This document shows positions 5,039-49,709 of a stretch of 64,000 nt of DNA, one piece after another. A program made the translations under genes and the position numbers. Below the pieces are notes generated by a model. It worked only from the letters and a program-made list of their open reading frames with translations, had not been told where the DNA came from and did no database searches. This stretch comes from a virus: positions 1-64,000 of IMG/VR virus record IMGVR_UViG_3300025151_000023; one strand, given 5' to 3'. Positions within the stretch are counted from its first letter, which is position 1, and every line of letters starts with the position of its first letter.

Positions 5039-6100
5039 ATGAAAAACATTATCGCTATGATAGTGACTGCAATAACTGTGCTGGGCTCAAGTAGTGTTGC
5101 ATTTGCTGATCAGCCAAAAATTGGCTTTATATACATTGGCCCGCCGGGAGATCACGGCTGGACCTACATGCACGACCAAGGTCGACAAGATATCGAAATT
5201 GAGTTGGGCTATGAAACAACGTATATTGAGAACGTACCAGAAAATGCTGACGCTGTTAGAGCCATCAGGAAACTAGCACAGACAGGTCACGACTTAATTT
5301 TTACAACGTCTTTTAACTACATGGATCAAACTTTGGAAGTAGCCAAAGAATTTCCTGATGTTAAATTTGAACACGCTACAGGATACATGAGAGCAGACAA
5401 CGTATCCACATATTCTTCAAGGTTTTATGAAGGTAGAACCATTGCAGGACACATTGCTGGAAGAGAAAGCAAAACTGGTGTGATAGGTTATATCGCATCT
5501 TTTCCAATTCCAGAAGTGGTGAGAGGCATCAATGCATTCATGTTGGCGGCACAAAAAGTAAATCCAGATATCAAAGTAAAAATTATTTGGGCATTTACTT
5601 GGTATGATCCAGGCAAAGAAGCAGATGCGGCTCAAACACTGATCAATCAAGGAGCAGACATTATTGTACAACACACTGACACATATGCACCTTGTCAAGT
5701 TGCACAGAAGAATGGTGTAAAAGCATTTGGACAAGCAAGTAACCAATATGACTTTTGTCCTGATGCACATCTAACTGCAATTATTGATGAATGGGGACCT
5801 TACTATGTGGCAAGAGCCAAAGCGTTGGCAGATGGCACATGGGAATCAACTGACACTTGGAAAGGCTTAGCAAGTGGCATGGTTGAAATGGCGCCATATC
5901 GCAACATGCACCCAGACACCAAATTTGAAGCCATTGCTTTACAAAAAGCATTGACCAAAGGTGATGTCCATTCTTTTGAAGGACCTATATACAACCAAGC
6001 AGGCGAACTAATGGTACCAGAAGGCGAAGTTGCTGATGATGGTATGTTGGCAGGCATGAATTGGTATGTCAAAGGCATAGACGGACAATTACCGCAGTAA
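5039..6100 (+). CDS. BMP-family periplasmic substrate-binding protein
   Basis: This 353-residue protein has a clear signal peptide (residues 1-23, ending AFA) and then QPKIGFIYIGPPGDHGW, typical of the BMP/PnrA (Med) family that binds purine nucleosides or related ligands for an ABC transporter. The family motifs (GHIAG near residue 140, GADIIVQHTDT near 210) and the usual length are present. No lipobox cysteine follows the signal, so it would be a free periplasmic protein. No permease or ATPase gene is nearby, so it would have to work with the host transporter, as PstS does in cyanophages. GAGGAG precedes the start. It looks complete and intact. Confidence 0.8.
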   Translation: MKNIIAMIVTAITVLGSSSVAFADQPKIGFIYIGPPGDHGWTYMHDQGRQDIEIELGYETTYIENVPENADAVRAIRKLAQTGHDLIFTTSFNYMDQTLEVAKEFPDVKFEHATGYMRADNVSTYSSRFYEGRTIAGHIAGRESKTGVIGYIASFPIPEVVRGINAFMLAAQKVNPDIKVKIIWAFTWYDPGKEADAAQTLINQGADIIVQHTDTYAPCQVAQKNGVKAFGQASNQYDFCPDAHLTAIIDEWGPYYVARAKALADGTWESTDTWKGLASGMVEMAPYRNMHPDTKFEAIALQKALTKGDVHSFEGPIYNQAGELMVPEGEVADDGMLAGMNWYVKGIDGQLPQ

Positions 6101-6111
6101 ATTATTTGTAG

Positions 6112-6131
6112 AGCCGGATTTTATTCCGGCT
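6112..6131. terminator. Bidirectional terminator between convergent genes
   Basis: AGCCGGA (6112-6118) and TCCGGCT (6125-6131) form a 7-bp stem with a 6-nt AT loop and a T-rich flank. It lies between the convergent BMP gene and SGNH gene and contains the SGNH stop codon. Confidence 0.7.
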
Positions 6132-6858
6132 TTACTTTGTTAAAATATCTGTAAGTTTTTTCAACATCATCTGAGTAATCAATCATTAATGGAGACATTT
6201 GTTCTAATCCATTGATTACCCAATTGGCTACCATGTCACATTTTTGCTGGGTATCTAAATGGTTGCTCTCCTTAACAGGTGACCCTGTGGTATCACCAGC
6301 CATCACTGACATAAGTGTAGGACGAATTTCAACTCCATGGCCAAAAGAAAAAAGATAAGAAGTATTACTAGGTGAAAAGTCGTTTACATTTTGCCCTTCA
6401 ACAGCTGAGTTGGCCATACTCCAAAGATGCACTGTTGGTATATCTTTTGGTAGTTGTTGCACAAACTTTTTTATACTTGCTTCGTACTCGTAGTTTTCTT
6501 TACGATAATCAATCAAATTATCGTAATAAGATTTGGCCGACTTCCATATTTTAGAATTTTTAGATTTTGGAGGAGGATTATATACTGAGGCAAAATTTAA
6601 ATTACTAACATGACGATTGTACAATCGACCAGGCTGTGTCCAACAAAATACAGCATAATCAACATTGCCGTTATGGGTTTTCCACGAATTAGCAGGATAT
6701 TGATCAAGAATTACAGACCAGTGACTGCTCCCTAATATTCCCTTGTTTATTATGGTGGCATTAAAATATTTTGCAACTGTGTGTGGCCATGAGCCTTTAT
6801 CTACATGATAACAAAAGCTATCGCCATAAAATCCAATTGTTTTTTTATGAGATGCCAT
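6121..6858 (-). CDS. SGNH/GDSL-like hydrolase
   Basis: This 245-residue protein has GFYGDSFCY at residues 9-17, a typical GDS block, and SNHLD near residue 205 in the region of the usual DxxH block. No signal peptide is seen, so it should act in the cytoplasm. It overlaps the start of the nucleotide-sugar dehydrogenase gene's 3' end by 14 bases and is cotranscribed with it, which suggests sugar or nucleotide-sugar deacylation or a similar role in glycan modification. The catalytic His is uncertain because the C-terminal motif is reversed (HLD) relative to the classic order. Confidence 0.55.
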   Translation of the reverse strand: MASHKKTIGFYGDSFCYHVDKGSWPHTVAKYFNATIINKGILGSSHWSVILDQYPANSWKTHNGNVDYAVFCWTQPGRLYNRHVSNLNFASVYNPPPKSKNSKIWKSAKSYYDNLIDYRKENYEYEASIKKFVQQLPKDIPTVHLWSMANSAVEGQNVNDFSPSNTSYLFSFGHGVEIRPTLMSVMAGDTTGSPVKESNHLDTQQKCDMVANWVINGLEQMSPLMIDYSDDVEKTYRYFNKVKPE

Positions 6859-9603: not shown

Positions 9604-11295
9604 ATGGAAGACTCAAAGGCTCTAGAACAAATAGACAAATTGACATCGCGTTTCACACGCACTTGCCCTTCAACACAACAATATCAACAACGTTTAGCAG
9701 AAGAATTTGAAATCATACTCTCGCTTAGGTTCACTGACTACTTTTGTCAAATCCGAGATATATTAGATTTAAGCACAGACATACCTCACATGACTCGAGG
9801 ATCTGCAGGTTCATCTTTGGTGTGTTATCTTATGGGCATCACAGATGTTGATCCCATCCAGTGGGACATTCCTGTGGCAAGATTTCTTAATCCAAAACGT
9901 GACGACTTACCAGATGTAGATATTGATTATCCTCATTACAAACAAGAAGAAGTGATGAACAGAATCTTTAAGAATTGGCCTGGCAAGTCTGCAAGAATAT
10001 CAAACTATGTTTTATATCAAGACAAGTCAGCAAAACGTGAAGCGGCAAAAAGACTAGGATACAAAGGAAGACTGCCCAAGAAGTTCTCGTACGAATCATT
10101 AGGCATCGATCCTAAAGAGGCAAAACGAATAGAAAGCAAATTGAAAGGCAAAAAGAAATGTATATCAAAACACTGTGGAGGCATCTTAATGTTTACAAGG
10201 CAATTACCAAAATCTTTAATATCACAAACAAATCAAATTCTACTAGACAAAAACGAAGTAGAGGATTTAGAACATTTGAAGGTGGACATATTAGCAAACA
10301 GAGGGCTAAGTCAACTGTTGGACATAGACTCGAAAACAAAGTTATACGAATATCCAGAGATAGACAAGGCTACTTCGTCTTTGTTGAGTCGGGGAGACGT
10401 GTTGGGAGTAACTCAAGGAGAGTCACCAGCGATGAGAAGATTGTTTAGAGCTATTCGTCCTCAGTCTATGAAAGATTGTGTATTTGCTACAGCATTGATT
10501 CGACCAGTGGCTTTGCAAGGCAGGCGTAAAGCGGCCTTCTTTAATGATTGGACATCTGACAGAGTATCAGATGTAGTAGTGTGTGAAGATGATGCTATTG
10601 TGCAGATTGCAAAGTTGATTGGGTGTGACTATTATGAAGCTGATATGTATCGCAGAGCATTTGCTAAGAAAAACGAAGAACGAGTAATGGAGTTTATGAC
10701 TAGACTAGGAGACCATCCACGCAAGGATGAAATATTTTCAACATTACAAGAATTAAGTGGCTTTGGTTTGTGCAGAGCTCATGCAGTAAATTTAGGAAGG
10801 CTAATTTGGGCATTAGCATATCAAAAAGCACACAACATAAAAGGTTTTTGGTCAGCGGCACTTAAACATTGTCATGGCTCTTATAAACGCTGGGTGTATA
10901 AAACTGAAGCTAAAAGAGCCGGATTAACACCGGTTACTGTTTCTAAGTCTGACTTGTTTGACGATCCTGTTTGGCAATATAAAAAATATGGTTGGTGGTC
11001 CAACTCAAAATTCTTACCAGGATTTTACACTCGACATTTATATCTTGATCGTATTGAGTTTGCTGGATTAGTTGCAAACGGTAGAGTTTATAAATCAGGA
11101 AATAAAAAGTATGTTACGTTTGTAACACTTGGTATTGATAATGGATACTACATTGATTTAAGCATTGACAAACCATTTCCATATACAGAATATGATGTAA
11201 TACGTGGGATTGGTAGGATTAAACATTTAAACAATTCTGATTATGTAGAAGTTATTGAGGCAGAGCCAATGAGAATAGATAAATTTTATGATTAG
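9604..11295 (+). CDS. Compact family-C DNA polymerase (DnaE-like catalytic core)
   Basis: This 563-residue protein matches the polymerase core of DNA polymerase III alpha: TRGSAGSSLVCYLMGITDVDP (residues 64-84) is the GS motif, LPDVDID (102-108) gives the first two catalytic aspartates (D104, D106), and LKVDIL supplies the third (D228). Further family blocks are KHCGGI (about 190), GVTQGES, RRAFAKKNEE and GFGLCRAHAVN. The C-terminus (FAGLVANGRVYKSGNKKYV) resembles the OB-fold. The PHP domain normally at the N-terminus and the tau-binding tail are absent; bacterial DnaE has about 1100 residues. T4-like phages normally use family-B gp43, so this is unusual. An intact triad suggests activity, but that is inference. 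Confidence 0.85.
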   Translation: MEDSKALEQIDKLTSRFTRTCPSTQQYQQRLAEEFEIILSLRFTDYFCQIRDILDLSTDIPHMTRGSAGSSLVCYLMGITDVDPIQWDIPVARFLNPKRDDLPDVDIDYPHYKQEEVMNRIFKNWPGKSARISNYVLYQDKSAKREAAKRLGYKGRLPKKFSYESLGIDPKEAKRIESKLKGKKKCISKHCGGILMFTRQLPKSLISQTNQILLDKNEVEDLEHLKVDILANRGLSQLLDIDSKTKLYEYPEIDKATSSLLSRGDVLGVTQGESPAMRRLFRAIRPQSMKDCVFATALIRPVALQGRRKAAFFNDWTSDRVSDVVVCEDDAIVQIAKLIGCDYYEADMYRRAFAKKNEERVMEFMTRLGDHPRKDEIFSTLQELSGFGLCRAHAVNLGRLIWALAYQKAHNIKGFWSAALKHCHGSYKRWVYKTEAKRAGLTPVTVSKSDLFDDPVWQYKKYGWWSNSKFLPGFYTRHLYLDRIEFAGLVANGRVYKSGNKKYVTFVTLGIDNGYYIDLSIDKPFPYTEYDVIRGIGRIKHLNNSDYVEVIEAEPMRIDKFYD

Positions 11296-12329
11296 GCTAA
11301 TTCGCCATAAATTAAAATACTAGTTCTAGGTTCATTACCTTCGTGGATAACACTGTGTGGGATATCAGCGGTGTTGACCATTAATGGATGTTCTAGAGGC
11401 AGTAGTCCGCTTCTGCCTAACTTAAACTGCACATCGTCGCTACCTTTTATAGCCCAATAAACTTTTTTACAACCTTTGATATAAGGGTAGCACTCTCTTT
11501 GTGTATGATCATCTCTGTGAATCATAAATCCATGTCCAGGTTTAAGTGTTTGTACAGAGATGTCTATCAATCTTTTATACCCTGAAGCAATCACTAAATC
11601 TTTTATTGATTGATATGGAATGTCGTCTATTTCAACAAATGGCAAATCCGACACACCATTCTTAAGTTGCTTAATTAACAATCCGTAGTCCTGTTCATCT
11701 GTTAATTTATTATTTCTCACTACACCGGAATCAAACCCCCATGGGCCTCCTGCCTTACAATAAGAATGATTTGTGCAAAACTTATCCAAATCTAATAGTA
11801 ATTGATCAACATCGATCTTTGGTAACTTCAACTTCAACCATGGTGCATCATCATGATTGTTTTTCCACCAGTGAGGCCCGTCACCATGATTAAAAAAACT
11901 TATCATCTTGTTATCCCAGCCTTCGTGAATCTTATGTGGCCGATTAACAGTTAACACATATTTTTCGAATAAGTTTTTTCCGTACTCACCGTTGTCTATT
12001 TCTTCATACAGTCGTTCTATCATCTGCCCTATGTCAGTGTGTATCCATATGCTAAAACAACAACCTTTATCCCATACTGCTGTTGCTGGTTGGTGTATTT
12101 GCCCTTGACCATCAGTGCAATACCCTGTATAGATAAATTGTCCTATGCTTGAGCCATTGATGCTTATATCTTCAATTTCTATACTTGTATCGACATATTC
12201 AACACACAGTTCGTACCATCCTGAATCTAATGGTTGGTCTTTGCCTAGTTTAATATTATGTTGTACATTAGACAAATCTTTTAGATAAACTTTTTCAATA
12301 ATATTGTTGCTTGTAATTGAAATAAGCAT
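11292..12329 (-). CDS. 2OG-oxygenase-like domain protein
   Basis: This 345-residue protein has two parts. The first 120 residues are beta-rich (TSNNIIEKVYLKDL, GYCTDGQGQIHQP). The C-terminal 130 residues carry GHGFMIHRDDHTQ, then IPHSVIHEGNEPRTSIL, which gives an HxD..H arrangement and a downstream arginine typical of Asp/Asn beta-hydroxylase-like or 2OG-Fe(II) oxygenases. It converges with the DnaE-like gene (4-base overlap) and lies next to the helicase. A substrate cannot be named; peptidyl or small-molecule hydroxylation are both possible. It could equally be a non-catalytic cupin fold. Confidence 0.5.
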   Translation of the reverse strand: MLISITSNNIIEKVYLKDLSNVQHNIKLGKDQPLDSGWYELCVEYVDTSIEIEDISINGSSIGQFIYTGYCTDGQGQIHQPATAVWDKGCCFSIWIHTDIGQMIERLYEEIDNGEYGKNLFEKYVLTVNRPHKIHEGWDNKMISFFNHGDGPHWWKNNHDDAPWLKLKLPKIDVDQLLLDLDKFCTNHSYCKAGGPWGFDSGVVRNNKLTDEQDYGLLIKQLKNGVSDLPFVEIDDIPYQSIKDLVIASGYKRLIDISVQTLKPGHGFMIHRDDHTQRECYPYIKGCKKVYWAIKGSDDVQFKLGRSGLLPLEHPLMVNTADIPHSVIHEGNEPRTSILIYGELA

Positions 12330-12331
12330 TA

Positions 12332-13738
12332 TTAATTTTTGTCTAAGTTTTGTATTAGCTGTTTTATTTTTGAACTTTCGATATCAGCTTTTACCTTACC
12401 AACATCATCACCTTGATATTTGTGATCCGGTTTGGCATCTTCAGTGACTGTTGAAGTTCTTTTTAGATTAGCGTATATAGATGGTGCTTGTTTTTTGAAA
12501 GATTGATATTCTTCGTCTTCGGCTAAATCTAATATTCGCAAAGTGTCAACATTAAATTCTAAATCAACTTTGTGACCAACGCCAGAACTAGATCTTGTTT
12601 TCATAAATTGTATTTGATACTTGCCACGTTCTCTCATTGCACGCGACGTAAAGATACCGATCACATTATCCGCAGTTTGTATTTTACTCAATCCACCACT
12701 AATGTGTGAATGATCAAATTCTATTTCTTCAACACTTGCTCTGTTCAATTGAGATGCTGTAATTAATATTGCATTTAGATCCACTGCTAAGTTTCTCAGT
12801 TCTTCTGATACATATTTGTCTTTTACAAACAAGTCACTTGGCGATACACGTTTGTTCATTGGCATCAGCAAGTCTAAGTAATCAATCAATACAACATCAC
12901 ATTTAATACTGTGCTGTATTTCAAATTCTTTAATGTAAGCTCTAACGTCAATAGCAGTAGCGCCACTTGGAATATATTTTATCCTAAATTGCCCTGCCTT
13001 TTTAGACTTCATCTTTACTTTAAGATCAACTGTGTCTAAATCTTTGTATATTTCCCTTGTTGGAGTTTCTGTCATCATTGCATCAATTCTCATCGCTGTA
13101 AGATTTTCACTTAACTCTAAAGTTATATACACACAGTTTAACCCTTGCTCTGCATAATTTACCGCTAAGTTTTGTAAAAACAAACTCTTACCTGCGCCAG
13201 AACCACCTGCAAAAATATTAAGTTCTCCTCTGTTAAAGCCACCAAACAGTTTTTTATCAAAGTTCTTCCAGCCAGTAGCAACAGTACCATTGTTGTCTTT
13301 CAGTGCTTGTAGTCTTGATTTTGGGTCTTCAAAATAGTCTGTACCCATGTCTTTTGTTAAGCCTACTTGAACAGCTCTTTTAATCTTTTCTTCAACTGAT
13401 CCATAATCACCTTTTTCTAACATATCAGCTGATGCTAATATTGCCATTTCTAATTCTTTGTGTCTTGCAAATCTTTCATATTCATCTAAGAACCAATCAA
13501 AATGTTTTGGATCAATGTCTGCGGCTGATTGTAATTCTGCACCTGTCTTTGCATTTACCATATCAACTTCAGGCAAAGTTTTATATTCTTGTGCATAATC
13601 ATATATGAACTTTGCCGCATCTCTTAAGTGTGCGTCATAGTGTCTGTACATGAAAATATTTTGTGCCCTAACAAATGATTCTGCATCTGCAAGGAACATT
13701 TCTAAAAATAGTTTTTGTAAGTCTTTTGTATATTCCAC
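12332..13738 (-). CDS. gp41: gp41-like replicative DNA helicase (DnaB family)
   Basis: This 468-residue RecA-fold helicase has Walker A GGSGAGKS at residues 178-185, CDVVLIDYLD (Walker B) at about 280-289, a glutamine-rich helix around ITASQLNRASVEE (motif 3), and an arginine-finger region near the C-terminus (FMKTRSSSG). The N-terminal 150 residues are helical, as in the DnaB/gp41 N-domain. gp41 unwinds DNA at the T4 fork as a hexamer and stimulates the gp61 primase. The primase gene lies directly upstream in the same strand and operon, as in other T4-like phages. The length matches the family. Confidence 0.9.
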   Translation of the reverse strand: MEYTKDLQKLFLEMFLADAESFVRAQNIFMYRHYDAHLRDAAKFIYDYAQEYKTLPEVDMVNAKTGAELQSAADIDPKHFDWFLDEYERFARHKELEMAILASADMLEKGDYGSVEEKIKRAVQVGLTKDMGTDYFEDPKSRLQALKDNNGTVATGWKNFDKKLFGGFNRGELNIFAGGSGAGKSLFLQNLAVNYAEQGLNCVYITLELSENLTAMRIDAMMTETPTREIYKDLDTVDLKVKMKSKKAGQFRIKYIPSGATAIDVRAYIKEFEIQHSIKCDVVLIDYLDLLMPMNKRVSPSDLFVKDKYVSEELRNLAVDLNAILITASQLNRASVEEIEFDHSHISGGLSKIQTADNVIGIFTSRAMRERGKYQIQFMKTRSSSGVGHKVDLEFNVDTLRILDLAEDEEYQSFKKQAPSIYANLKRTSTVTEDAKPDHKYQGDDVGKVKADIESSKIKQLIQNLDKN

Positions 13739-13774
13739 GTTTATATTATATAACCTTTCGATTGGTTTGTCTTG

Positions 13775-14737
13775 TTAAATCCATAATTTTTCATTCAACT
13801 TTATTTTTGTGTTTGTGTCATATGTGTATTTCAATATCGCTTGAAATGTTAATATTTTACCATATCGAATAACTGCGTTATTGATATCTTTGACACCATC
13901 GCTCCACGGTGGCATGGACACGCTCCATCCCCATTCACATGCTTGGTTAATTAATTTTGATCCTGCTTTGTCTCTGTCAGGCACTACAATTACTTTTCGA
14001 TTCAATGCATCTATTTGTAACTTTTGCTTATTGCTAATTTCACTACCTAAAATTGCAACGCCATCTATCATTATTGCATCAAACACACCTTCTGTTAATA
14101 TAACATATTTGCGTGACCAATGTTGTGCGTCCAAGTTGAATAAAGATCCGGGTTGGACATTGGCATAGTATTTAGGTTTGGTATCCTGTTGGATAGCTCT
14201 TGCTACATATCCTATTTTAATTTTGTTCCACACAATAGGCACTATTATTCTGTTTGGCATTTCTTTACTAGAGTAATAAAAATTATAGTCAGTTGGACTT
14301 ACGCCACGTGTGTTCAAATAAGAAATATATTCTGGTTCTGTTGTTATAGATTTTGCATCTTGTGGAAATGATGCAGGGCTAAAATTAATTTGTTCATCAG
14401 TGGGTTTTGTTGTTGGAGATATCTCTTGTGCTAGTTTCATAGATTTCATACTTAACTTGCCAATCTCACTGCTGGAAACATTGAGCCATGTTAACAGTTT
14501 TCTAAATCTTGTGTTTAGATATCTTCCAGGGCGATAGCTTGTTTTGAATCCACAGTTGAAGCAATGATATTGTATAGCACCATCTGGCTGATACATCATG
14601 CCGCCACGTTGTCTTGAGTCATTGGTTTCGCCGTTGTGATGACAGCAAGGGGCATCAAATGATATCCATCCCGACGGTGTTTTTTTCCTTCTGGCTGGCA
14701 AATGTGACTCTAATGTTTGTCTGAGCTCTGTAAACAT
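13775..14737 (-). CDS. gp61: gp61-like DNA primase
   Basis: This 320-residue primase has an N-terminal zinc site: CCHH (residues 31-34) and HCFNC (58-62). The Toprim domain shows VILTEGVFDAIMID (E216) and VVPDRDKAG (D254, D256), the metal-binding acidic residues. It makes RNA primers for lagging-strand synthesis and works with the gp41 helicase encoded just downstream. The zinc finger spacing and the Toprim order match T4 gp61 and DnaG. The gene starts 16 bases from the small DUF3307-like gene. Confidence 0.88.
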   Translation of the reverse strand: MFTELRQTLESHLPARRKKTPSGWISFDAPCCHHNGETNDSRQRGGMMYQPDGAIQYHCFNCGFKTSYRPGRYLNTRFRKLLTWLNVSSSEIGKLSMKSMKLAQEISPTTKPTDEQINFSPASFPQDAKSITTEPEYISYLNTRGVSPTDYNFYYSSKEMPNRIIVPIVWNKIKIGYVARAIQQDTKPKYYANVQPGSLFNLDAQHWSRKYVILTEGVFDAIMIDGVAILGSEISNKQKLQIDALNRKVIVVPDRDKAGSKLINQACEWGWSVSMPPWSDGVKDINNAVIRYGKILTFQAILKYTYDTNTKIKLNEKLWI

Positions 14738-14752
14738 TTAGTTTATTATAAA

Positions 14753-15166
14753 CTAAAAAAACAATTTGTCAAAGCACCAAACGTAAAAATAGTAACAAGT
14801 AAAATGCAATATTTGATCAATAGCAGATATGATCCAAAACTTTTGATCGATAATTCCAACGTTGGCTTTCTTTAATATATGACTTTTCCGCCAGTCAATT
14901 AATAAGTGTAACCAAAAATCCAAAAATGCAAACAATACAAAACCATAAAATATTTCATTAGTTACATCTGTAAAAATTTTTAAGTAGACACTTACAAGCA
15001 AAAAAACAACAGCAGTTCCTATGGCATGATCTAACGCATGTAAAGTACCATTGGGGTGCCAAAATTGTAATTTAGATTTTGGTGGATATTTTAAAGCAAA
15101 CCTGCCTTGTAAAGCTAAATCACAAATAGAATGCTTCACTAGTAGCAAAAAGAAAATTGGCGACAT
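14753..15166 (-). CDS. DUF3307-like membrane protein
   Basis: This 137-residue protein is nearly all hydrophobic segments (about four), starting FLLLVKHSICDLALQGRFAL and including HALDHAIGTAVVFLL and FLDFWLHLLIDW. The His/Asp positions in the membrane segments (KH..D..LQ and H...H) match the DUF3307 family, membrane proteins of unknown function that are common in marine bacteria and phages. It sits between the primase and a virion-like protein and overlaps the latter by one base. The function is unknown. Confidence 0.6.
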   Translation of the reverse strand: MSPIFFLLLVKHSICDLALQGRFALKYPPKSKLQFWHPNGTLHALDHAIGTAVVFLLVSVYLKIFTDVTNEIFYGFVLFAFLDFWLHLLIDWRKSHILKKANVGIIDQKFWIISAIDQILHFTCYYFYVWCFDKLFF

Positions 15167-15969
15167 TATGACCTGTATAATATTTTGTCTAGTCCTGCAA
15201 GTACAGTTGATGAATCATCTTGTGTTACAACAAAGGCTACACGTTTATGTATACCGGTAAAGTTAACTGGGTATCTTCCAGTAGCCGCACTATATTCTTG
15301 TCTATCTATCTGATAAAAGTCTGCTTGTTGTACTTCAGTTCCATATGATGCTCCGTCAGTCATTGTACCCATTATTTTAATTGAGCCTGTGAAGTTTGTC
15401 AAATAATATACTGCTGTGTGCAAAGCAGAATTTGAATTACGATTTGGTTTTGCATCCACCGAGCTAGATGAATGTTCGTCGCCTATAACATTGAACGAAG
15501 TAATAAGTTGTGATTCGATGAATTCTGGAGATGTGTCCCCAACAACTTCAAACTGTATAGCCGCATCATATCTAGTGTCTGCATATAATATTTTTACTGT
15601 GGAATCAGTATCAGTAAACTTCAGTACACCATGGTAAAATATTTGATCAAGTTTAAGCATGTCTGACTCAGTAAGTGTAAATTCAATGTGTCCTTTTGTT
15701 GTAGTAGTTGACCCATCATCGAGCACTGTGCCAACTTTAGTTAGAACTAAACTACCATTTTCGTCTGATATTTGTAAATCACAGCTTGTCCCGTCTACAA
15801 ATTGTTTCTTTTGATCTTGGTTTTTCACAACTACAGTAAACTTGTTGTCAAATTCTTTGTATAGTTTTATAGGTCGCTCGTACACTTTTTCATACCTTCT
15901 TTCAGTCCCAGATGTTTGTAATTGTACATCCAGTTGGTTTGTGAGATTATATCCAGTAATATATTGCAT
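15166..15969 (-). CDS. Probable virion protein (BppU/baseplate-like domain)
   Basis: This 267-residue, strand-rich protein has FTVVVKNQDQKKQFVDGTSCDLQI near residue 45, which resembles the immunoglobulin-like N-domain of phage upper-baseplate (BppU) or tail proteins. The rest contains repeated D/S/T-rich loops and no enzyme motif. A CATAAATA box (15982-15989) lies 12 bases upstream, as for other late genes here. Upper-baseplate or fibre attachment is likely, but no exact family member can be named. Confidence 0.5.
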   Translation of the reverse strand: MQYITGYNLTNQLDVQLQTSGTERRYEKVYERPIKLYKEFDNKFTVVVKNQDQKKQFVDGTSCDLQISDENGSLVLTKVGTVLDDGSTTTTKGHIEFTLTESDMLKLDQIFYHGVLKFTDTDSTVKILYADTRYDAAIQFEVVGDTSPEFIESQLITSFNVIGDEHSSSSVDAKPNRNSNSALHTAVYYLTNFTGSIKIMGTMTDGASYGTEVQQADFYQIDRQEYSAATGRYPVNFTGIHKRVAFVVTQDDSSTVLAGLDKILYRS

Positions 15970-15986
15970 GGCATTTACGTATATTT

Positions 15987-16409
15987 ATGAAACCTTTATT
16001 TTACTTCAGCTCTCCTGATGGTAATAACTACTATAAAATGACTGTGAAACTTGAAGAAATACAAAAAAACTACCCTTTCTTGTCTGTAATAAAAGTCGCT
16101 AACGAAGAACGAGTTGGCATAATACAGAACTGTGATCAACGTATTATAAGCATATACTGTTATGATTACATCCAAAAGCAATTACAACCATTGTTTTTAG
16201 AATATGGACGTGATTGGTGGTGGGAATCTAACAGAAAACTACCAGTCAACATGTTTATAGGTGATAAGTTTAAAGTATTTTCTAGTAGCTTAAGATCTTA
16301 TTCAATGAAGGAAACAGAAGTTGTTTTTGGGCCTATTACTAAGTTAAGTGATTTACTTAATGTCAAAAGACTAAGACGTAAAACAGTTCAGCTAATCAGA
16401 AAAGTTTAA
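15987..16409 (+). CDS. Hypothetical protein (140 aa)
   Basis: This 140-residue protein starts at ATG 15987, close to the divergent gene at 15969. It begins with a strand pair (KPLFYFSSPDGNNYYKMTVKL), then a helix, then a Trp-rich stretch (YGRDWWWES), and ends in a basic helix (NVKRLRRKTVQLIRKV). The basic tail suggests nucleic-acid contact. It converges with the small DnaE-like gene and overlaps it by 18 bases. No family is recognised. Confidence 0.45.
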   Translation: MKPLFYFSSPDGNNYYKMTVKLEEIQKNYPFLSVIKVANEERVGIIQNCDQRIISIYCYDYIQKQLQPLFLEYGRDWWWESNRKLPVNMFIGDKFKVFSSSLRSYSMKETEVVFGPITKLSDLLNVKRLRRKTVQLIRKV

Positions 16410-16955
16410 CAAGTTCATATGCACAACAACTGCCATTGCGTAAGACATGGCGTGTGCTTTTTTGAAATAATATTGTCCATCAGTAGGTTTTATCCATACT
16501 TCACTATGTATTTTGCTCCATTCACTATCAACCAAATATCTTTTGGCTGGACGTATGATAGCAAGACAACAAGCTATTTCTTCTACTGTTTTTGGTTGTA
16601 ACTTTGACACTACAGCAAAATGCCCATTTAAATGAAACAGTTGGTCAACAAAAGACTGATCATGCAATTTCTCCCATGGGGGATCTTTTGCTACCAGTTC
16701 TGCAAGATGTTTTCTAGTTTTAACTTGTGAGTAAATGCTGACGTTAAGCAAATCCAGTTTGAAGTATCCAAGTTGTTCAGCTACTTGATAATCAAGAGAA
16801 CATTGATTGTCATTTGGCATGGTTGGTGCTGTGGTAAAGTAAACGCCTGTGTTATGACTTTTGATTCCTTTTTTATCTATTATTGTTGCTCGTGTGTGAG
16901 GCAATGCATCAAGTATGTGTTGCCTATCTGCAAAATCTATATCAATATCAGGCAT
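16392..16955 (-). CDS. Very small DnaE-like protein (family-C polymerase fragment)
   Basis: This 187-residue protein begins MPDIDIDFADR, the catalytic motif of DNA polymerase III alpha (D3, D5). It then has HNTGVYF (the HAGGV block), GYFKLDLLN (D68, the third catalytic aspartate position), KLQPKTVEEIACCLAIIRPA (the LRP block) and FKKAHAMSYA (the FNKSHA block). All are in DnaE order but drastically shortened, and the upstream GS motif that closes the active site is missing. It may be a degenerate copy, a regulator or a partner of the 563-residue polymerase at 9604. It has its own promoter 7 bases before the ATG and no frameshift, so it looks like a maintained gene. Confidence 0.75.
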   Translation of the reverse strand: MPDIDIDFADRQHILDALPHTRATIIDKKGIKSHNTGVYFTTAPTMPNDNQCSLDYQVAEQLGYFKLDLLNVSIYSQVKTRKHLAELVAKDPPWEKLHDQSFVDQLFHLNGHFAVVSKLQPKTVEEIACCLAIIRPAKRYLVDSEWSKIHSEVWIKPTDGQYYFKKAHAMSYAMAVVVHMNLLNFSD

Positions 16956-19952: not shown

Positions 19953-20759
19953 TTATAACTTCTGCTTAACAGTTGCGTCTAGTATTTTTAATTTGGTTAT
20001 TAATTTTCTAAACTCATCTGGTGTTACCATGTTGGGCCCATCTGATGGAGCATTGTCTGGATCATCGTGTACTTCTAAAAATACACCAGCAATACCTTGA
20101 GCTACTGCTGATAAACAAAGCGGTTCTATCATAGTACGATCACCACCAGAGCTAGAACCAAGTCCGCCTGGTTGTTGCACAGAGTGTGTGCCGTCAAATA
20201 TTACAGGACATAGGTTTTTCATATATGAAAATCCTCTCATATCGACTACTAAGTTATTATAGCCAAACATTGTACCACGTTCGGTAATCATAAACATGTC
20301 GTTCCAGGATTCGTTGACTTTTATTTTAATGTTATCAACATCAGTGTAAGAAAGAAACTGTCCTTTTTTTACATTAACGACACGTTTTGTTTCGGCTGCC
20401 GCTTGTATTAAATCAGTTTGTCTACACAAAAAAGCAGGAATCTGTATAATGTCAACTACTTCTCCAGTTACACCACATTGATCAGGTTCATGCACATCTG
20501 TTAACAGTGGACATTCAAATTCTTTGCCAACCTTTTCTAATATTTCTAAACCTTGTTTTAAGCCAACGCCACGTGCACCGTTAACAGAAGATCTGTTAGC
20601 TTTGTCAAAAGAAGATTTATACACCCAACGTACACCTACCTCATGGCAAATGTCTGCAATTTTTTCTGCCATTTTCAATGCATGTGTTTCTGATTCTATT
20701 TGGCAAGGTCCAGCAATAATTTTTAATGGAGCATCGTTTACAAATTTAAAGTTAAGCAT
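19953..20759 (-). CDS. kdsA: KdsA-like 3-deoxy-8-phosphooctulonate synthase
   Basis: This 268-residue enzyme begins with LKIIAGPCQIES and has YKSSFDKANRSS, RGVGLKQGLEIL, TDVHEPDQC, IPAFLCRQTDL, KKGQFL, TERGTMFGYNNL and DGTHSVQQPG, all blocks of KdsA. It condenses phosphoenolpyruvate with arabinose 5-phosphate to Kdo 8-phosphate, the precursor of Kdo in LPS and some capsules. The length equals bacterial KdsA and active-site blocks are intact. The phage also has four proteins resembling capsule Kdo-transferases at 25665, 28757, 35239 and 36014, so boosting the Kdo supply for phage-made glycans is a natural inference. Confidence 0.9.
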   Translation of the reverse strand: MLNFKFVNDAPLKIIAGPCQIESETHALKMAEKIADICHEVGVRWVYKSSFDKANRSSVNGARGVGLKQGLEILEKVGKEFECPLLTDVHEPDQCGVTGEVVDIIQIPAFLCRQTDLIQAAAETKRVVNVKKGQFLSYTDVDNIKIKVNESWNDMFMITERGTMFGYNNLVVDMRGFSYMKNLCPVIFDGTHSVQQPGGLGSSSGGDRTMIEPLCLSAVAQGIAGVFLEVHDDPDNAPSDGPNMVTPDEFRKLITKLKILDATVKQKL

Positions 20760-21306: not shown

Positions 21307-22761
21307 TTATGACTCATAGTCAACCTTTGTTACAGAAAAAGGATATTGAGCTTCACGATAAAACTTTTTACGTTCTGTAAGATGTCGTTTAGAAAACTTT
21401 GCAGTTGAGCACAAATCCCATACTTGTACAAAGTCTTTATCTTTTGCTTTACGAATACCTCTTCCTATGCTTTGTATTACTCTTACAAAAGATTTGCCTG
21501 GTTCTAGCAAAACCAAATTGAATATACGTGGCAAGTTTATGCCTACAGCCGCAACACCATAAGTAGCAATAATCACTTTATCTTTTTCGGTTTGTATTTC
21601 GTCATACGTTTCTTTTCTGTCATCTGATTTAGTTGCACCACTTACAAAAGTTGAATTTGGTATTGCTTCTTGTAACAACTCTCCTGATTTGACCCGATCC
21701 ACTAATATAAGAGTGTTGCCGCTTTTTACCATTTCTTGCACTAAACGCCCAATGTATTTTATTCTAGACGGTTTTGTAACCAAATGTGTTTGCTCTTCTC
21801 TGTAATTTTTGTATTCTACCCAATCAACCATTTGCATAATTTCAATTTGTAACTGTGCTAACAATCCTTTTTCTTGCAGTTCAACAGCAGATACTTTGTT
21901 AATAACATCACCTAACGAAACGTGTAATGATTTGAATTCATAATCTTTTTTAGGCACAGTGCCAGTTAGTCCCCAGCGTATTGGCACAAACCCATATACA
22001 TTTGTCAGCAGTCGTTTCAATACATCTGCCTTTGCCATGTGTACTTCATCTACAATTACACATATAACGTCACGTTTGAATTCTTCTATTAGATCATCCT
22101 CGCCATTTTGTCTTTTCTTCTCCAGTATGTTTAAAGATTGCCATGTTGCAATAGTATGTGTATGCCCTACTTCTTTTTTATCACCAAAGTATACACCAAC
22201 ATCTAAACCCATGTTTACATAATCTTCTAAAGTTTGTGTGACCAATGACTTGTTTGGTACAATAATAATACTTCTTCCATATGGTTCAATGAGTTTGCTC
22301 AACGCCGCAGTAATAATTGTTTTACCTGCCGCAGTGGCTACTTCCTGTAAGCACTGTGGATTATCTAAAAAATTATTAATTACTTCAACTTGATGTTCAC
22401 GTAATTGTATTGGTTCGCCTGCATTATTATGACCTTCTGGCCACTTTACATGTGCAAAGCTATCTGTTGTTACTTTGTCAAAATGTAATTCATAATGTTT
22501 TCTTTGATCAGCTAGATCAAATGTGTAGTTGTATTGTTCAAGTAATGGTATTATTTCATCTAGTAAATTCACATAAGTCAATCCACCTTGTGAAAAGAAA
22601 GATACAGTGCCATCCCATCTGCCTAGTCTAACTGCTGGCATAAAGCGTGCGCCTGGAATTTCATATTTGAATTTGTTTGTAAGTTTTCTTCTTGTGACTA
22701 GATCAAGTCCTTCTAGTTTTACGTTAACTTCGTCTTTGATTATTATATTACAGTGTGGCAC
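21307..22761 (-). CDS. uvsW: UvsW-like recombination helicase
   Basis: This 484-residue SF2 helicase has an N-terminal beta domain (residues 1-110, GARFMPAVRLGRWDGTVSFF), then the Q-like IQLREHQVE, Walker A VATAAGKT (141-148), DEVH (238-241), RWGLTGT, and in domain 2 GATKSDDRKE, ATYGVAAVGINLP and QSIGRGIRKA (motif VI). UvsW unwinds branched DNA and R-loops and ends origin-dependent replication in T4. The N-terminal domain and full motif order match. It is preceded by small genes including the 50-residue product at 22777. Confidence 0.92.
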   Translation of the reverse strand: MPHCNIIIKDEVNVKLEGLDLVTRRKLTNKFKYEIPGARFMPAVRLGRWDGTVSFFSQGGLTYVNLLDEIIPLLEQYNYTFDLADQRKHYELHFDKVTTDSFAHVKWPEGHNNAGEPIQLREHQVEVINNFLDNPQCLQEVATAAGKTIITAALSKLIEPYGRSIIIVPNKSLVTQTLEDYVNMGLDVGVYFGDKKEVGHTHTIATWQSLNILEKKRQNGEDDLIEEFKRDVICVIVDEVHMAKADVLKRLLTNVYGFVPIRWGLTGTVPKKDYEFKSLHVSLGDVINKVSAVELQEKGLLAQLQIEIMQMVDWVEYKNYREEQTHLVTKPSRIKYIGRLVQEMVKSGNTLILVDRVKSGELLQEAIPNSTFVSGATKSDDRKETYDEIQTEKDKVIIATYGVAAVGINLPRIFNLVLLEPGKSFVRVIQSIGRGIRKAKDKDFVQVWDLCSTAKFSKRHLTERKKFYREAQYPFSVTKVDYES

Positions 22762-43429: not shown

Positions 43430-43885
43430 TTATAGATTAGCGTCTTCCATTCCTGCTACTCTAAGTTTTACTATATTTGTAAGATGCCATTGTTTTTGAT
43501 CTAGTGCTTTGATTACACCTAACCATTTGTTCCTTAGTAGAGCCCACTCGTTAACGATTGCTTCATAATTACAAACTTCATCTTCACCTTCTGCATACTT
43601 TTCTGCGTCACGTGATGTAAGAGCTCTTTGATAATTTTCTAAATATTTTTTGTAGTGTTTAGTGCGTAATCGTCTGTGTTGTATTTCTAAATGTTTTAAT
43701 ATGCCTTCAACTTCTTGTAGTTGTCTAAAACGTTCTTCCACAACACCTGGCATTGATGCTGATTGTTTTTCAATGTTGCCTTGTAATTTAACTTCTTTTG
43801 ATGCGTGTTCTAGTTCAGATTCATAGTGTGTAATTGCATCAGGAATCTTAGAAACGTCTTGTGAAACTATTGAGAACCAATTCAT
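43430..43885 (-). CDS. uvsY: UvsY-like recombination mediator
   Basis: This 151-residue helical protein has LEIQHRRLRTKHYKKYLENYQRAL in the middle and NEWALLRNKWLGVIKALDQKQWHLTNI at the end, resembling T4 UvsY and its marine relatives (LE..YKK.Y, then coiled helix). UvsY helps UvsX displace gp32 from single-stranded DNA. It lies two genes downstream of uvsX on the same strand, as expected. The overall length and charge fit UvsY (about 140). Confidence 0.65.
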   Translation of the reverse strand: MNWFSIVSQDVSKIPDAITHYESELEHASKEVKLQGNIEKQSASMPGVVEERFRQLQEVEGILKHLEIQHRRLRTKHYKKYLENYQRALTSRDAEKYAEGEDEVCNYEAIVNEWALLRNKWLGVIKALDQKQWHLTNIVKLRVAGMEDANL

Positions 43886-44139
43886 TAGTAATCTTCATAA
43901 CGTTCTTCACCATAACCATCACCATAATCCTCATATTCATCTTTGTCGTACTCTTTTAGTTCTTGAATAGCTTCATCTAGTTCCTCGTCATGGCCTAGTA
44001 ATTCATCTAGATCTTCTTCTATAAGCCCAGTGTTAGCAATTATATCAACAAACTTGTTTGCAACTATAGATTTATCTTTGGCAGGGACGTATGACTTAAT
44101 TAAGTTCCAAACATCAATTAACATTTGCGTCTCCGTCAT
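43885..44139 (-). CDS. Acidic hypothetical protein (84 aa)
   Basis: This 84-residue protein is very acidic at the end (YDKDEYEDYGDGYGEERYEDY). The first half is a helical TETQMLIDVWNLIKSYVPAKDKS segment. It lies between uvsX and the UvsY-like gene, overlapping UvsX at its start by 26 bases. An acidic tail can regulate SSB or recombinase contacts, but this is a guess. It is a conserved marine phage-type gene in this position. Confidence 0.5.
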   Translation of the reverse strand: MTETQMLIDVWNLIKSYVPAKDKSIVANKFVDIIANTGLIEEDLDELLGHDEELDEAIQELKEYDKDEYEDYGDGYGEERYEDY

Positions 44140-45199
44140 TTTCTTTTGTCTCTTCTAGTCCTTCTGGTTGTGTAACAACTTGGTTACTTACCTCTTGCAT
44201 TACAATTTTTAAATTTTCTGCTCCCCAGGCTTTTCTGTAATCAAGCAGTTCTTTACCATCTGCTGTTATATATTTCAAACGATTGCCTTGTTGTGTAATA
44301 AGGCCTTTTTTCTCAAATAAATCTAATAAGCCACTGTATGGATTCATGCCAGTTTCATAAGGAATTTTTACTTGCACACCTTCAAAAGGCTTTGCAAATC
44401 TTGTCTTCATAACCTTACACGCGGCTCTTATACCACGTACTTCACTTACTTTGTTGCCTGCTTCGTCCTCTTTAAGTTTAAGTTTTTTCATTGCAACAAC
44501 GATACTGGATGCATATATAAATCCTTGTCCACCTGATATCTTATCATCAGGATCAAACATGTCCTGTGATGCATAAGTGTGATTAGTTGCAACCATGCCT
44601 ACGTTAAATGAACCAAACATGTTTACACAGTTTCTAACAAGAGCTGTTAGTGCCTTAGGTTTTCTGCCTAAGTCGCCCTTCATATCACCCTTTTCGAATT
44701 GATCTACATCAGTAGGAGTCATCATCATGCCTAGCGAATCTAATACAAACAATACTTTTGGTCGATCTTGTGGATCTTTGTCGGTATAGTCTGCTTTATA
44801 TTCTTTCATAAAGTTTGATATTGTTTTAGCAACATCATCGATCATGCTCATACCTAGTCGTAAAAGTTTTTCTTCTGATGTATCAACACCAATGGCTTTT
44901 AACCATGCTTCATCTAATGCATTTTCAGAGTCAACTAGGATTACAAATATGCCTTGTTTTTGTGCTTCTCTTATAATGTTGCCCGAACAAATATAAGACT
45001 TGCCAGAACCAGACTCGCCTGCAAAGACTGTTACTTTGCCTAGCGGAATACCTTTATAAAAATCTCCCGAAATAAGATAGTTTAAGGCGTAGTTGCCAGT
45101 TGATATCCAGTCAGTTGGATCATTGAATCCTACTCCTAGCCCATCAATAGACTTTGTAATACTTTTTCTAAATTTTGTTACATCAAAAGGTTTAACCAT
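44114..45199 (-). CDS. uvsX: UvsX RecA-like recombinase
   Basis: This 361-residue recombinase has Walker A GESGSGKS (61-68), KVLFVLDSLGMMMT (Walker B), a DNA-binding L1/L2 region with GRKPKALTALVRNCVNMF and ATNHTYASQDMF, and an acidic C-terminus (EGLEETKENDGDANVN). It catalyses strand exchange in T4-type recombination-dependent replication. It sits next to uvsY and the gp32 gene. A consensus promoter lies upstream at 45221-45248 with TATAGGAGTC as RBS. Confidence 0.93.
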   Translation of the reverse strand: MVKPFDVTKFRKSITKSIDGLGVGFNDPTDWISTGNYALNYLISGDFYKGIPLGKVTVFAGESGSGKSYICSGNIIREAQKQGIFVILVDSENALDEAWLKAIGVDTSEEKLLRLGMSMIDDVAKTISNFMKEYKADYTDKDPQDRPKVLFVLDSLGMMMTPTDVDQFEKGDMKGDLGRKPKALTALVRNCVNMFGSFNVGMVATNHTYASQDMFDPDDKISGGQGFIYASSIVVAMKKLKLKEDEAGNKVSEVRGIRAACKVMKTRFAKPFEGVQVKIPYETGMNPYSGLLDLFEKKGLITQQGNRLKYITADGKELLDYRKAWGAENLKIVMQEVSNQVVTQPEGLEETKENDGDANVN

Positions 45200-46112: not shown

Positions 46113-47105
46113 TTATTTTTGTCTTGCTCTAATCATTGCAAGTATGTCTTCTGCTTTACTACCACTAGTCTGCGTTTGTGCCGCAGGTTCTGGGGCTGGT
46201 TGAGCCGCAGGTTGTGGTTGAGGCGCAGGCTCTGGTGTAACTTGTGGAGTTACTGGGGCTGTTGTTGCCTCCATTGCTGGTGCCGGTGCCGGTGTTGCAG
46301 TGGTGCCACTTCCGGTTGCAGGAGCCTTAAATCCTCCTGGACGGAAATACTGACTGAATTTATCTGCATCATATGGTTCCCCATCAACTGACGCTTTAAA
46401 CATTTCTTCCATTACTTTAATTTCTACTTCAGTTGGTTTCTTTGGTAGATAATCACCTAAGTTATGTAAGCCATATGTCTCTATTGCACTTTGTTGTTCT
46501 GCACTTAGCGGAGAAGTTTTTCTTGACCATTTAGAAGTTGAATAGTCTGCATAACCACCTTTGGTAGTTTTGTTTACTCTAAAATCAACACCTCTAGTAT
46601 AGTCAGTTGGTAAATCTTCCATTTCTGAATCCATCAATGCAGATTTAATAATGTTGAAGATTTGCGGACCAATTATAAAACGTCTGATTGGATTCTCCGG
46701 TGTAGCATCTTCCTGCAATGGTGATGCTGTTACAAAGCCTTGAAATATGTAAGAACGTTTCTTCCAATATTTCCTACCTAAGTCTTCTAATGATTTGTCT
46801 TTGAACCATTGTCTTACTTCTGCAAGAATTGGACAAGCTTCGTTATACATTTCCATACAAGGAATTTGCACCTGTACAGGTCCAGATGAAGCATCACCTT
46901 TTACTGAATTGAAAGGCAATTTGATCATTGCTCTTTCAGTCCAAAAGAAAGTATTGTTTGGATCTTTGTCGGGTAAAAATCTTAAAACTGCTTCTGAGTT
47001 TTCTGGAATATTCCAGTGCGGATATATTGCATTGTCGCCACCTTCACCTGAAGGTTTTGAGTTTTGAGCCTGCAATTTAGCTCTTATATCAGCCAATGTT
47101 GCCAT
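46113..47105 (-). CDS. gp32: gp32-like single-stranded DNA-binding protein
   Basis: This 330-residue protein has the gp32 start (basic N-terminal helix, KLQAQNSKP) and DNA-binding core with IYPHWNIPENSEAVLRFLPDKDPNNTFFWTERAMIKLPF. The C-terminal tail is linked by a Pro/Ala/Gln/Thr-rich stretch (TPAPAPAMEATTAPVTPQVTP-like) of about 70 residues and ends in an acidic-to-basic tip (EDILAMIRARQK). gp32 covers ssDNA and contacts gp41, gp61, UvsX and UvsY. The T4 protein has 301 residues. AAAGGAGG and a promoter precede it. Confidence 0.88.
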   Translation of the reverse strand: MATLADIRAKLQAQNSKPSGEGGDNAIYPHWNIPENSEAVLRFLPDKDPNNTFFWTERAMIKLPFNSVKGDASSGPVQVQIPCMEMYNEACPILAEVRQWFKDKSLEDLGRKYWKKRSYIFQGFVTASPLQEDATPENPIRRFIIGPQIFNIIKSALMDSEMEDLPTDYTRGVDFRVNKTTKGGYADYSTSKWSRKTSPLSAEQQSAIETYGLHNLGDYLPKKPTEVEIKVMEEMFKASVDGEPYDADKFSQYFRPGGFKAPATGSGTTATPAPAPAMEATTAPVTPQVTPEPAPQPQPAAQPAPEPAAQTQTSGSKAEDILAMIRARQK

Positions 47106-48731: not shown

Positions 48732-49709
48732 TTATTCTATGCTGTGTTTTGATTTTTTACATATTGATAGTATCTTATTAGCTAAATTTTGTTCAAAATC
48801 ATCGTACAGTGTTCTCAGATGCCTTAATTTTGCTTGATTGTGTGCCAGTATTGTTTGTATGGCACTGTTATCAGCTGACTGGCTTAAAAAGTAATTTTTG
48901 AAGCTATTACAAGCTAATTGTATGCGTTTATTTGTGTTGGGTTCACTGTCGTATGACTCGTCAATATGTGGATGAAATGTTTTGAAGCCTAGCTGTCTTA
49001 ATTTTTTCAAATAATTTTGGCAACCGACCATTACAAATGGTATTCCTGCTCTTATAGGTTTAATTGTTTTTTCAGTGATAAAAAAGAAATCAGTTTCGGT
49101 TTCGGTTACTAATTCTATTTTACTACGTGAATATGCCGGAATCAAATCTGCATCTGCCCAATCGGTATTTGCACCTGTCTTTGTAAATTCCGCATGTTGA
49201 TGTTTGAAATAAGAATGTGGCACACTTTTCCTAAACATGTATTTGCTTAACTTATTGTAATTTGTGGATTCATCATACACAAAGTCGTTTGGATAATTGA
49301 ACATTTGCAAGTTTTCTAAAAGCCATTGCTCAACAACTTGCCTGTGAGGTCTGCTTTTTGACATCAAACAAGTCCAGTGTGTACCTTGTGCATTTGGTTG
49401 CAAAAAATCATCACCTAACCAAATAAATCTACTCCATGGTGAAGGAATGTGCCTGTTGTAGTTTAGATTTGTACCGTCGCCAATAATATAACAATCAGGG
49501 CTTTTTAGTAAGTGACTGACTCTACTGTTGTCTGTAGGTTGATGGACAATGTAAGTTACACCCTCGGTTTCATTGTTACGCATGTGCCAAAATATATTGG
49601 GCCAGCTGGCAACTATTACGTTGTATGGATTGGTTTCTGTGTTAAAATTTTTTATAAGGTCAGCGTCAATAAATCTACTGTTGAATTTATCACAACCAAC
49701 ACGAAACAT
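48732..49709 (-). CDS. GT10-like glycosyltransferase-type protein
   Basis: This 325-residue protein has DFFFITEKTIKPIRAGIPFVMVG, similar to the C-terminal motif of alpha-fucosyltransferases (GT10: TEKI..A...G.IPI), and YSRSKIELVTETE before it. The first half (PNIFWHMRNNETEGV) resembles the N-domain of exostosin-like enzymes. It lies between a virion gene and terminase, away from the glycan island, so it may glycosylate virion parts or be delivered with the late genes. The family is by motif only. Confidence 0.5.
   Translation of the reverse strand: MFRVGCDKFNSRFIDADLIKNFNTETNPYNVIVASWPNIFWHMRNNETEGVTYIVHQPTDNSRVSHLLKSPDCYIIGDGTNLNYNRHIPSPWSRFIWLGDDFLQPNAQGTHWTCLMSKSRPHRQVVEQWLLENLQMFNYPNDFVYDESTNYNKLSKYMFRKSVPHSYFKHQHAEFTKTGANTDWADADLIPAYSRSKIELVTETETDFFFITEKTIKPIRAGIPFVMVGCQNYLKKLRQLGFKTFHPHIDESYDSEPNTNKRIQLACNSFKNYFLSQSADNSAIQTILAHNQAKLRHLRTLYDDFEQNLANKILSICKKSKHSIE

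Follow-up and report, generated by a model that had tools for sequence, protein, structure and literature searches.

The C-terminal half of a split minimal DNA polymerase III α and an undivided DnaE core in a fragment of a marine RaK2-related jumbo phage

Results

The DNA analyzed here (the window) covers positions 1 to 64,000 of the 85,742-base IMG/VR virus record IMGVR_UViG_3300025151_000023, a fragment of a RaK2-related marine jumbo phage. It encodes two relatives of the family-C (DnaE-type) DNA polymerases: a 563-residue protein (P0001), encoded by an intact frame at 9604-11295 on the plus strand, and a 187-residue protein (P0002), whose equally intact frame runs from 16955 to 16392 on the minus strand. 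An earlier note, made from the sequence alone, had described a pair of family-C relatives within a T4-like genome, and both the Pfam and PHROG matches and the surrounding T4-like gene set bear this out. The note had also called the smaller gene intact, without stating its strand; the gene is intact, and it is conserved across relatives as well.

The 187-residue protein belongs to a family that is already known. It is the C-terminal unit of the split minimal polymerase (Pol) III α of Iyer et al. (2021; PMC7824862). In that report, a minimal Pol III α is divided in two in group 2.2 (RaK2-like) jumbo phages, with an N-terminal nucleoside triphosphate-binding protein and a C-terminal Mg- and template-binding protein encoded by genes that lie far apart. 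These phages also encode a family-B polymerase, and a role on one strand or in repair was suggested for the split enzyme. P0002 shares with the C-terminal protein described there the PDxDxDF start, the catalytic residues and the primase/helicase neighborhood, and it matched phrog_11778 (“DNA polymerase”) with an E-value of 4.6e-61. The Pfam scan returned only a weak fingers match and no PHP, OB or tau-binding domain.

Inspection of the 187-residue polypeptide confirmed that it starts at the catalytic motif, keeps the acidic positions and the later DnaE blocks in order and has no GS motif, as had been noted. The PDIDIDF motif occupies residues 2-8 (16932-16952, minus strand), with D3 and D5 aligning with D401 and D403 of E. 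coli Pol III α. The K66-L-D68 segment (16752-16760, minus strand) aligns K66 with K553 and D68 with D555. Across 80 homologues of this C-half, D3, D5, D7, H34, G37, K66, D68, R135, P136, K138, F164, K165, H168 and Y172 are invariant. When the C-halves were aligned together with longer DnaE proteins, the positions invariant throughout were D104, D106, D108, H190, K226, D228, R300, P301 and H393 (P0001 numbering). The AlphaFold2 model of the C-half alone had a predicted local distance difference test score (pLDDT) of 93, and its 16 best fold matches in the PDB were all Pol III α or PolC-type proteins.

Relatives of P0002 are encoded in 90 phage records and in more than 560 IMG/VR stretches, so the frame is not a chance one. 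An intact frame of about 185-216 residues was present in about 100 loci, with ratios of nonsynonymous to synonymous substitution rates (dN/dS) of about 0.07-0.17 where these could be estimated. That every catalytic residue is kept argues that the C-half is not a decayed fragment. The promoter that had been assigned to this gene did not hold up: the promoter-like site at 16991-16963 matches at 10 of 12 positions, yet such sites are no commoner in this region than in shuffled sequence (6 versus 4.9 ± 2.1). In GAP32 and CBB the C-half genes (loci L141 and L142, both at 5947-6597) are labeled as encoding a “putative membrane protein” or a protein with one transmembrane domain, which is probably a misannotation caused by the final hydrophobic helix.

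The other half of the split enzyme is a protein of ∼175 residues (phrog_11127) encoded by a separate gene. This N-half carries the GS motif and ends just before the PDxDxDF strand. In RaK2, Atu_ph07 and Phosso, it contains GxGRGS and terminates in EFL plus one or two residues. None of 107 N-half frames (159-310 residues) contains PDxDxDF, and those inspected from this set end at, or a few residues from, EFL(K/R). The N-half profile aligns with residues 336-406 of Mycobacterium tuberculosis DnaE1, and the C-half profile begins at residue 413 of the same protein (MPDIDIDF). The cut therefore falls after the GS-motif segment, in the loop of six residues that leads to the catalytic strand.

A DnaE of Tenacibaculum phage Larrie (515 + 676 residues; locus L149, 2146-5726) is cut near the same place, between its GS motif and PDIDSDF. 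It differs from the minimal type in that its pieces are those of an ordinary, full-size DnaE, its two genes are adjacent, and its N-terminal part has an extra tail of ∼55 residues which, by eye, resembles the start of a Hint domain or intein. This arrangement suggests that the GS/PDxDxDF junction has been split, or entered by an intein, more than once.

Gene order around the C-half is conserved in ten named jumbo phages (RaK2, PA5oct, PBECO4, CBB, GAP32, XbC2, Atu_ph07, Phosso, SCTP-2 and one Vibrio jumbo phage), where the C-half is followed by a convergent antisense open reading frame (ORF), a structural-protein gene, the primase and the helicase; Phosso has one additional gene ahead of the primase. 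In the window, the genes follow one another in this order on the minus strand, and a single additional small ORF (14753-15166) precedes the primase. Here the convergent ORF (140 residues, phrog_11637; 15987-16409, plus strand) overlaps the 3′ end of the C-half gene, and an antisense ORF overlaps or abuts the C-half gene at the corresponding place in the ten phages. The gene at 15166-15969 (minus strand), which has a weak phrog_1084 match, holds the position that the “virion structural protein” gene has in the jumbo phages. The gp61-like DNA primase lies at 13775-14737 (minus strand; phrog_47, E-value 8.9e-39), followed by the gp41/DnaB-like helicase at 12332-13738 (minus strand; phrog_19, E-value 1.9e-70; PF03796).

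A search for the N-half in ten named jumbo phages that have a C-half found it in every one (RaK2, Atu_ph07, Phosso, PA5oct, Vibrio 2.275, SCTP-2, GAP32, CBB, PBECO4 and Stenotrophomonas CM1). A phrog_262 search of this set other than GAP32, CBB and PBECO4 recovered the family-B polymerase gp43 in each of the seven phages, all of which have both halves. N-half, C-half and gp43 also occur together in eight IMG/VR contigs of 111-462 kb (G042, G043, G048, G049, G051, G054, G055 and G060). The distance between gp43 and the C-half often exceeds 70 kb in relatives. In 62 of 80 loci, the N-half gene and the clamp loader gene gp44 share a strand and lie 0.7-6.8 kb apart. N-half genes, gp44 and a GroES-like/head morphogenesis gene also form a conserved mini-cluster (L102, L103, L104, L145, L146 and L147). 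The family-B polymerase of the uncultured huge phage LR756508 (L092, 241-3294) apparently has an intein-like insertion (CFTPGHEIVTKDG...) and resumes in another frame ∼4 kb on. The gp43 of PA5oct is likewise spread over two frames, and an intein has been published for MIJ3, a relative of PA5oct (PMC6892783).

The 563-residue protein matched the Pfam families DNA_pol3_alpha (PF07733, E-value 9.5e-41) and DNA_pol3_finger (PF17657, E-value 2.5e-15). No PHP domain was matched in the Pfam scan and the DnaE homology begins at residue 12, so the protein is classed as a PHP-less variant and not as a cellular-type DnaE. Alignment with E. coli Pol III α (2HNH) placed D104, D106 and D228 on the triad D401, D403 and D555 and identified G66-S67 as the GS motif; this motif and the three aspartates are invariant in a 26-row alignment. 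On the plus strand, the GS motif is encoded at 9799-9804, D104-x-D106 at 9913-9921 and D228 at 10285-10287. A C-terminal β domain (11050-11271) is tentatively OB-like, as judged from β strands in a low-confidence model and Foldseek matches to RPA14 and SSB OB folds. The best Foldseek match of this low-confidence model was to Pol III α (E-value 2.8e-16).

In comparison with bacterial DnaE (E. coli 2HNH, M. tuberculosis 5LEW), P0001 has the GS motif, the three aspartates, the fingers and a tentatively OB-like part in the same order but lacks the PHP domain and the tau-binding C terminus, as the earlier note had it, and is about half as long. It is ∼39% identical over its whole length to a 574-residue DnaE-like protein of LR756508, which is also PHP-less; close relatives of the LR756508 version were sought in IMG/VR and not found. 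Relatives of P0001 were sought in bacterial genome contigs, also with no match. Within the subgroup to which the window belongs, identity is 87-90% for the 563-residue protein, compared with 61-75% for the C-halves, and the dN/dS of the undivided core is 0.03-0.09. The possibility that this gene arose by fusion of the two halves was considered and rejected. P0001 has a long helical insertion after PDxDxD, an ADMYRRA block and the OB-like tail; the C-halves lack the insertion and the ADMYRRA block, and neither half has the tail. As judged from its sequence, the 563-residue protein is a separate, undivided family-C polymerase core with predicted polymerase activity.

A C-half and a 563-like core occur together in about 40 marine contigs, including the window, mostly at distances of 4-9 kb. 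The marine contigs group together as a single clade in the C-half tree (support 0.90). The undivided core was present in none of the N-half contigs tested, two weak matches there being the N-halves themselves. The C-half is also found without the 563-residue gene inside the same marine clade, within the assembled range. In the window, the undivided core lies ∼5 kb from the C-half, an arrangement that goes unmentioned in the available part of the report on the split enzyme (PMC7824862). No description of an undivided core beside a C-half was found in a literature search; as far as that search shows, the link between a PHP-less core and the C-half in the marine clade is undescribed. Weinheimer and Aylward (2022; PMC9123017) noted PF07733 in roughly half of a marine jumbo-phage cluster, which fits DnaE-like genes being widespread.

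Searches across the whole 85.7-kb record returned no N-half, gp43 or gp44. The absence of gp43 reported earlier for the window thus extends to the entire record, and extending the search beyond the window recovered neither gp43 nor gp44. In contrast to the phages with the split enzyme of Iyer et al., the N-half and gp43 are not in the assembled part of the present genome. A divergent N-half was sought with an improved profile, among weak hidden Markov model matches and by a motif scan of 5575 frames, with none found; the motif used recovers 111 of 115 known N-halves. No family-A polymerase was found in the marine C-half contigs, and neither a family-B nor a family-A polymerase in the window record and 11 further contigs with both genes. 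The clamp loader gene gp44 was found in no marine C-half contig read locally, including the 85.7-kb record and the 262-kb contig G002. A search of the window record for a RaK2-type DnaQ-like subunit was also negative.

G002 (L362-L375) carries the C-half, a terminase and a ribonucleotide reductase, with no detectable polymerase of family A, family B or other family-C type and no gp44. A natural loss of polymerases in G002 was considered and rejected. Besides the missing gp44, its end (247-257 kb) is collinear, at 37-65% identity, with positions 62-79 kb of contig G061, which runs on to gp43 at 48 kb and to the N-half at 19 kb. The genes gp44, N-half and gp43 occur together in G061 and in contig G050. 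Since the N-half adjoins gp44 in relatives and gp44 is also absent from the marine C-half contigs, the replication block with gp44, N-half and gp43 is probably unassembled in this clade. This is the simplest reading of the absences, although no single contig of the clade joins these genes.

The gene set is T4-like (gp32, UvsX, UvsY, UvsW, gp41, gp61 and a T4-type terminase), and its order resembles that of RaK2. On the minus strand, a UvsW-like helicase lies at 21307-22761 (PF04851, weak PF21241), the UvsY and UvsX recombination genes at 43430-45199 (phrog_231, PF00154), a gp32-like single-strand binding protein at 46113-47105 (PF08804, phrog_1192) and the terminase large subunit at 49709-51283 (PF03237, PF17289). 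Around and beyond the UvsW gene (∼19950-42000), ∼20 kb read, by sequence alone, as sugar-nucleotide, glycosyltransferase-like and asparagine-synthetase-like genes, an example being a KDO-8-P synthase-like gene at 19953-20759; RaK2 has no such run at the corresponding place. At 5039-6097 (plus strand), a 353-residue protein with a signal peptide, likewise judged by sequence alone, resembles bacterial BMP-type ABC transporter substrate-binding lipoproteins, which is unusual for a phage.

Discussion

We consider it likely that this fragment of a marine RaK2-like phage encodes a C-half that pairs with an N-half, that the 563-residue protein is a separate core and that the N-half and gp43 genes lie in sequence that was not assembled. 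The two halves would dimerize and so restore a single nucleotidyltransferase palm, interrupted in the short loop before PDxDxDF. In such a heterodimer, the C-half would contribute both metal-binding strands (D3, D5 and D68), K66 beside the active site and reduced fingers, and the N-half would supply the GS motif, together giving a minimal second polymerase beside gp43. The N-half gene would be expected beside gp44, with gp43 elsewhere, in the unassembled part of the genome. The 563-residue core would be a further, independent polymerase of the marine subgroup, probably an accessory one acting on one strand, in primer extension or in repair.

Several observations weigh against this interpretation. 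Neither the N-half nor gp43 was found in any marine contig carrying the 563-residue gene (up to 108 kb) or in G002. The AlphaFold2 model of the 563-residue protein (pLDDT 57, shallow alignment) is of too low quality for an assessment of active-site geometry; the 187-residue protein is predicted to fold as Pol III α, and the three aspartates of P0001 are placed on the E. coli triad by sequence alignment. In the LR756508 record (484 kb), a 563-like core and gp43 occur with neither half; it follows that the undivided core does not need the halves.

Several other explanations were weighed. It is unlikely that the 563-residue core has replaced gp43 as the main replicase of the marine clade, a replacement at which the earlier note had hinted. 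That the window record and the 11 further contigs have no family-B or family-A polymerase would fit such a replacement, but contigs of 39-108 kb would often miss a gene that in relatives can be so far from the C-half, and the missing gp43 is uninformative in a fragment that lacks the gp44 block, where gp43 would lie. Moreover, gp43 is present in G050 and in G061, the latter partly collinear with a marine C-half contig, and in all seven relatives searched that have both halves; the distant relative LR756508 holds the undivided core and gp43 together; and the core has no PHP domain and no RaK2-type DnaQ-like subunit was found in the window record to accompany it. It is quite unlikely that the 187-residue protein is a regulator or some other nucleotidyltransferase and no part of a polymerase. 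Its very small size, the missing helical insertion after PDIDIDF, the missing part of the fingers and the membrane-protein annotation in GAP32 and CBB would agree with this, but all polymerase metal ligands, together with K66, R135, P136 and H168, are invariant, and the GS-motif half always co-occurs in the named genomes searched. Small size is also all that speaks for a random fragment or decaying gene, which is refuted by the intact frames, by dN/dS values well below 1 and by a gene order conserved across phages of unrelated hosts.

A change of partner in the marine clade, in which the N-half was lost and the C-half pairs with the 563-residue protein as GS-part donor or platform, appears distinctly improbable. 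The proximity of the two genes in about 40 contigs and the absence of an N-half from all of them, and from the 5575 frames scanned, are what such a change would leave. Against it, the 563-residue protein is equipped with a GS motif and aspartates of its own, the same clade includes C-halves with no 563-residue gene within the assembled range, LR756508 has the undivided core without a C-half, and the gp44 neighborhood of the N-half is simply not covered by the contigs. Still more remote is the combined case in which the C-half, having lost its N-half, serves the intact 563-residue core as a heteromeric replicase in a phage without gp43. The suggestion that the small protein is a subunit completing the larger one was thus right in kind but named the wrong partner: the 187-residue protein begins where the ∼175-residue N-half ends, and the 563-residue protein already holds the equivalent of both halves. 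Most likely, the C-half completes the N-half and not the 563-residue protein.

With the C-half and N-half as partners, a palm contained in two distantly encoded proteins and cut between its triphosphate- and metal-binding parts would be a minimal family-C enzyme accessible to experiment. The 187- and ∼175-residue halves suit quick biochemistry, with genes available from cultured phages such as RaK2, PBECO4 and PA5oct. In the marine subgroup, a second DnaE core, undivided and unusually small, is linked to the C-half, and the phages may encode as many as three different DNA polymerases. Should gp43 be present as well, one phage would hold three replicative-type polymerases of two families, and division of labor at the phage replication fork would become directly testable.

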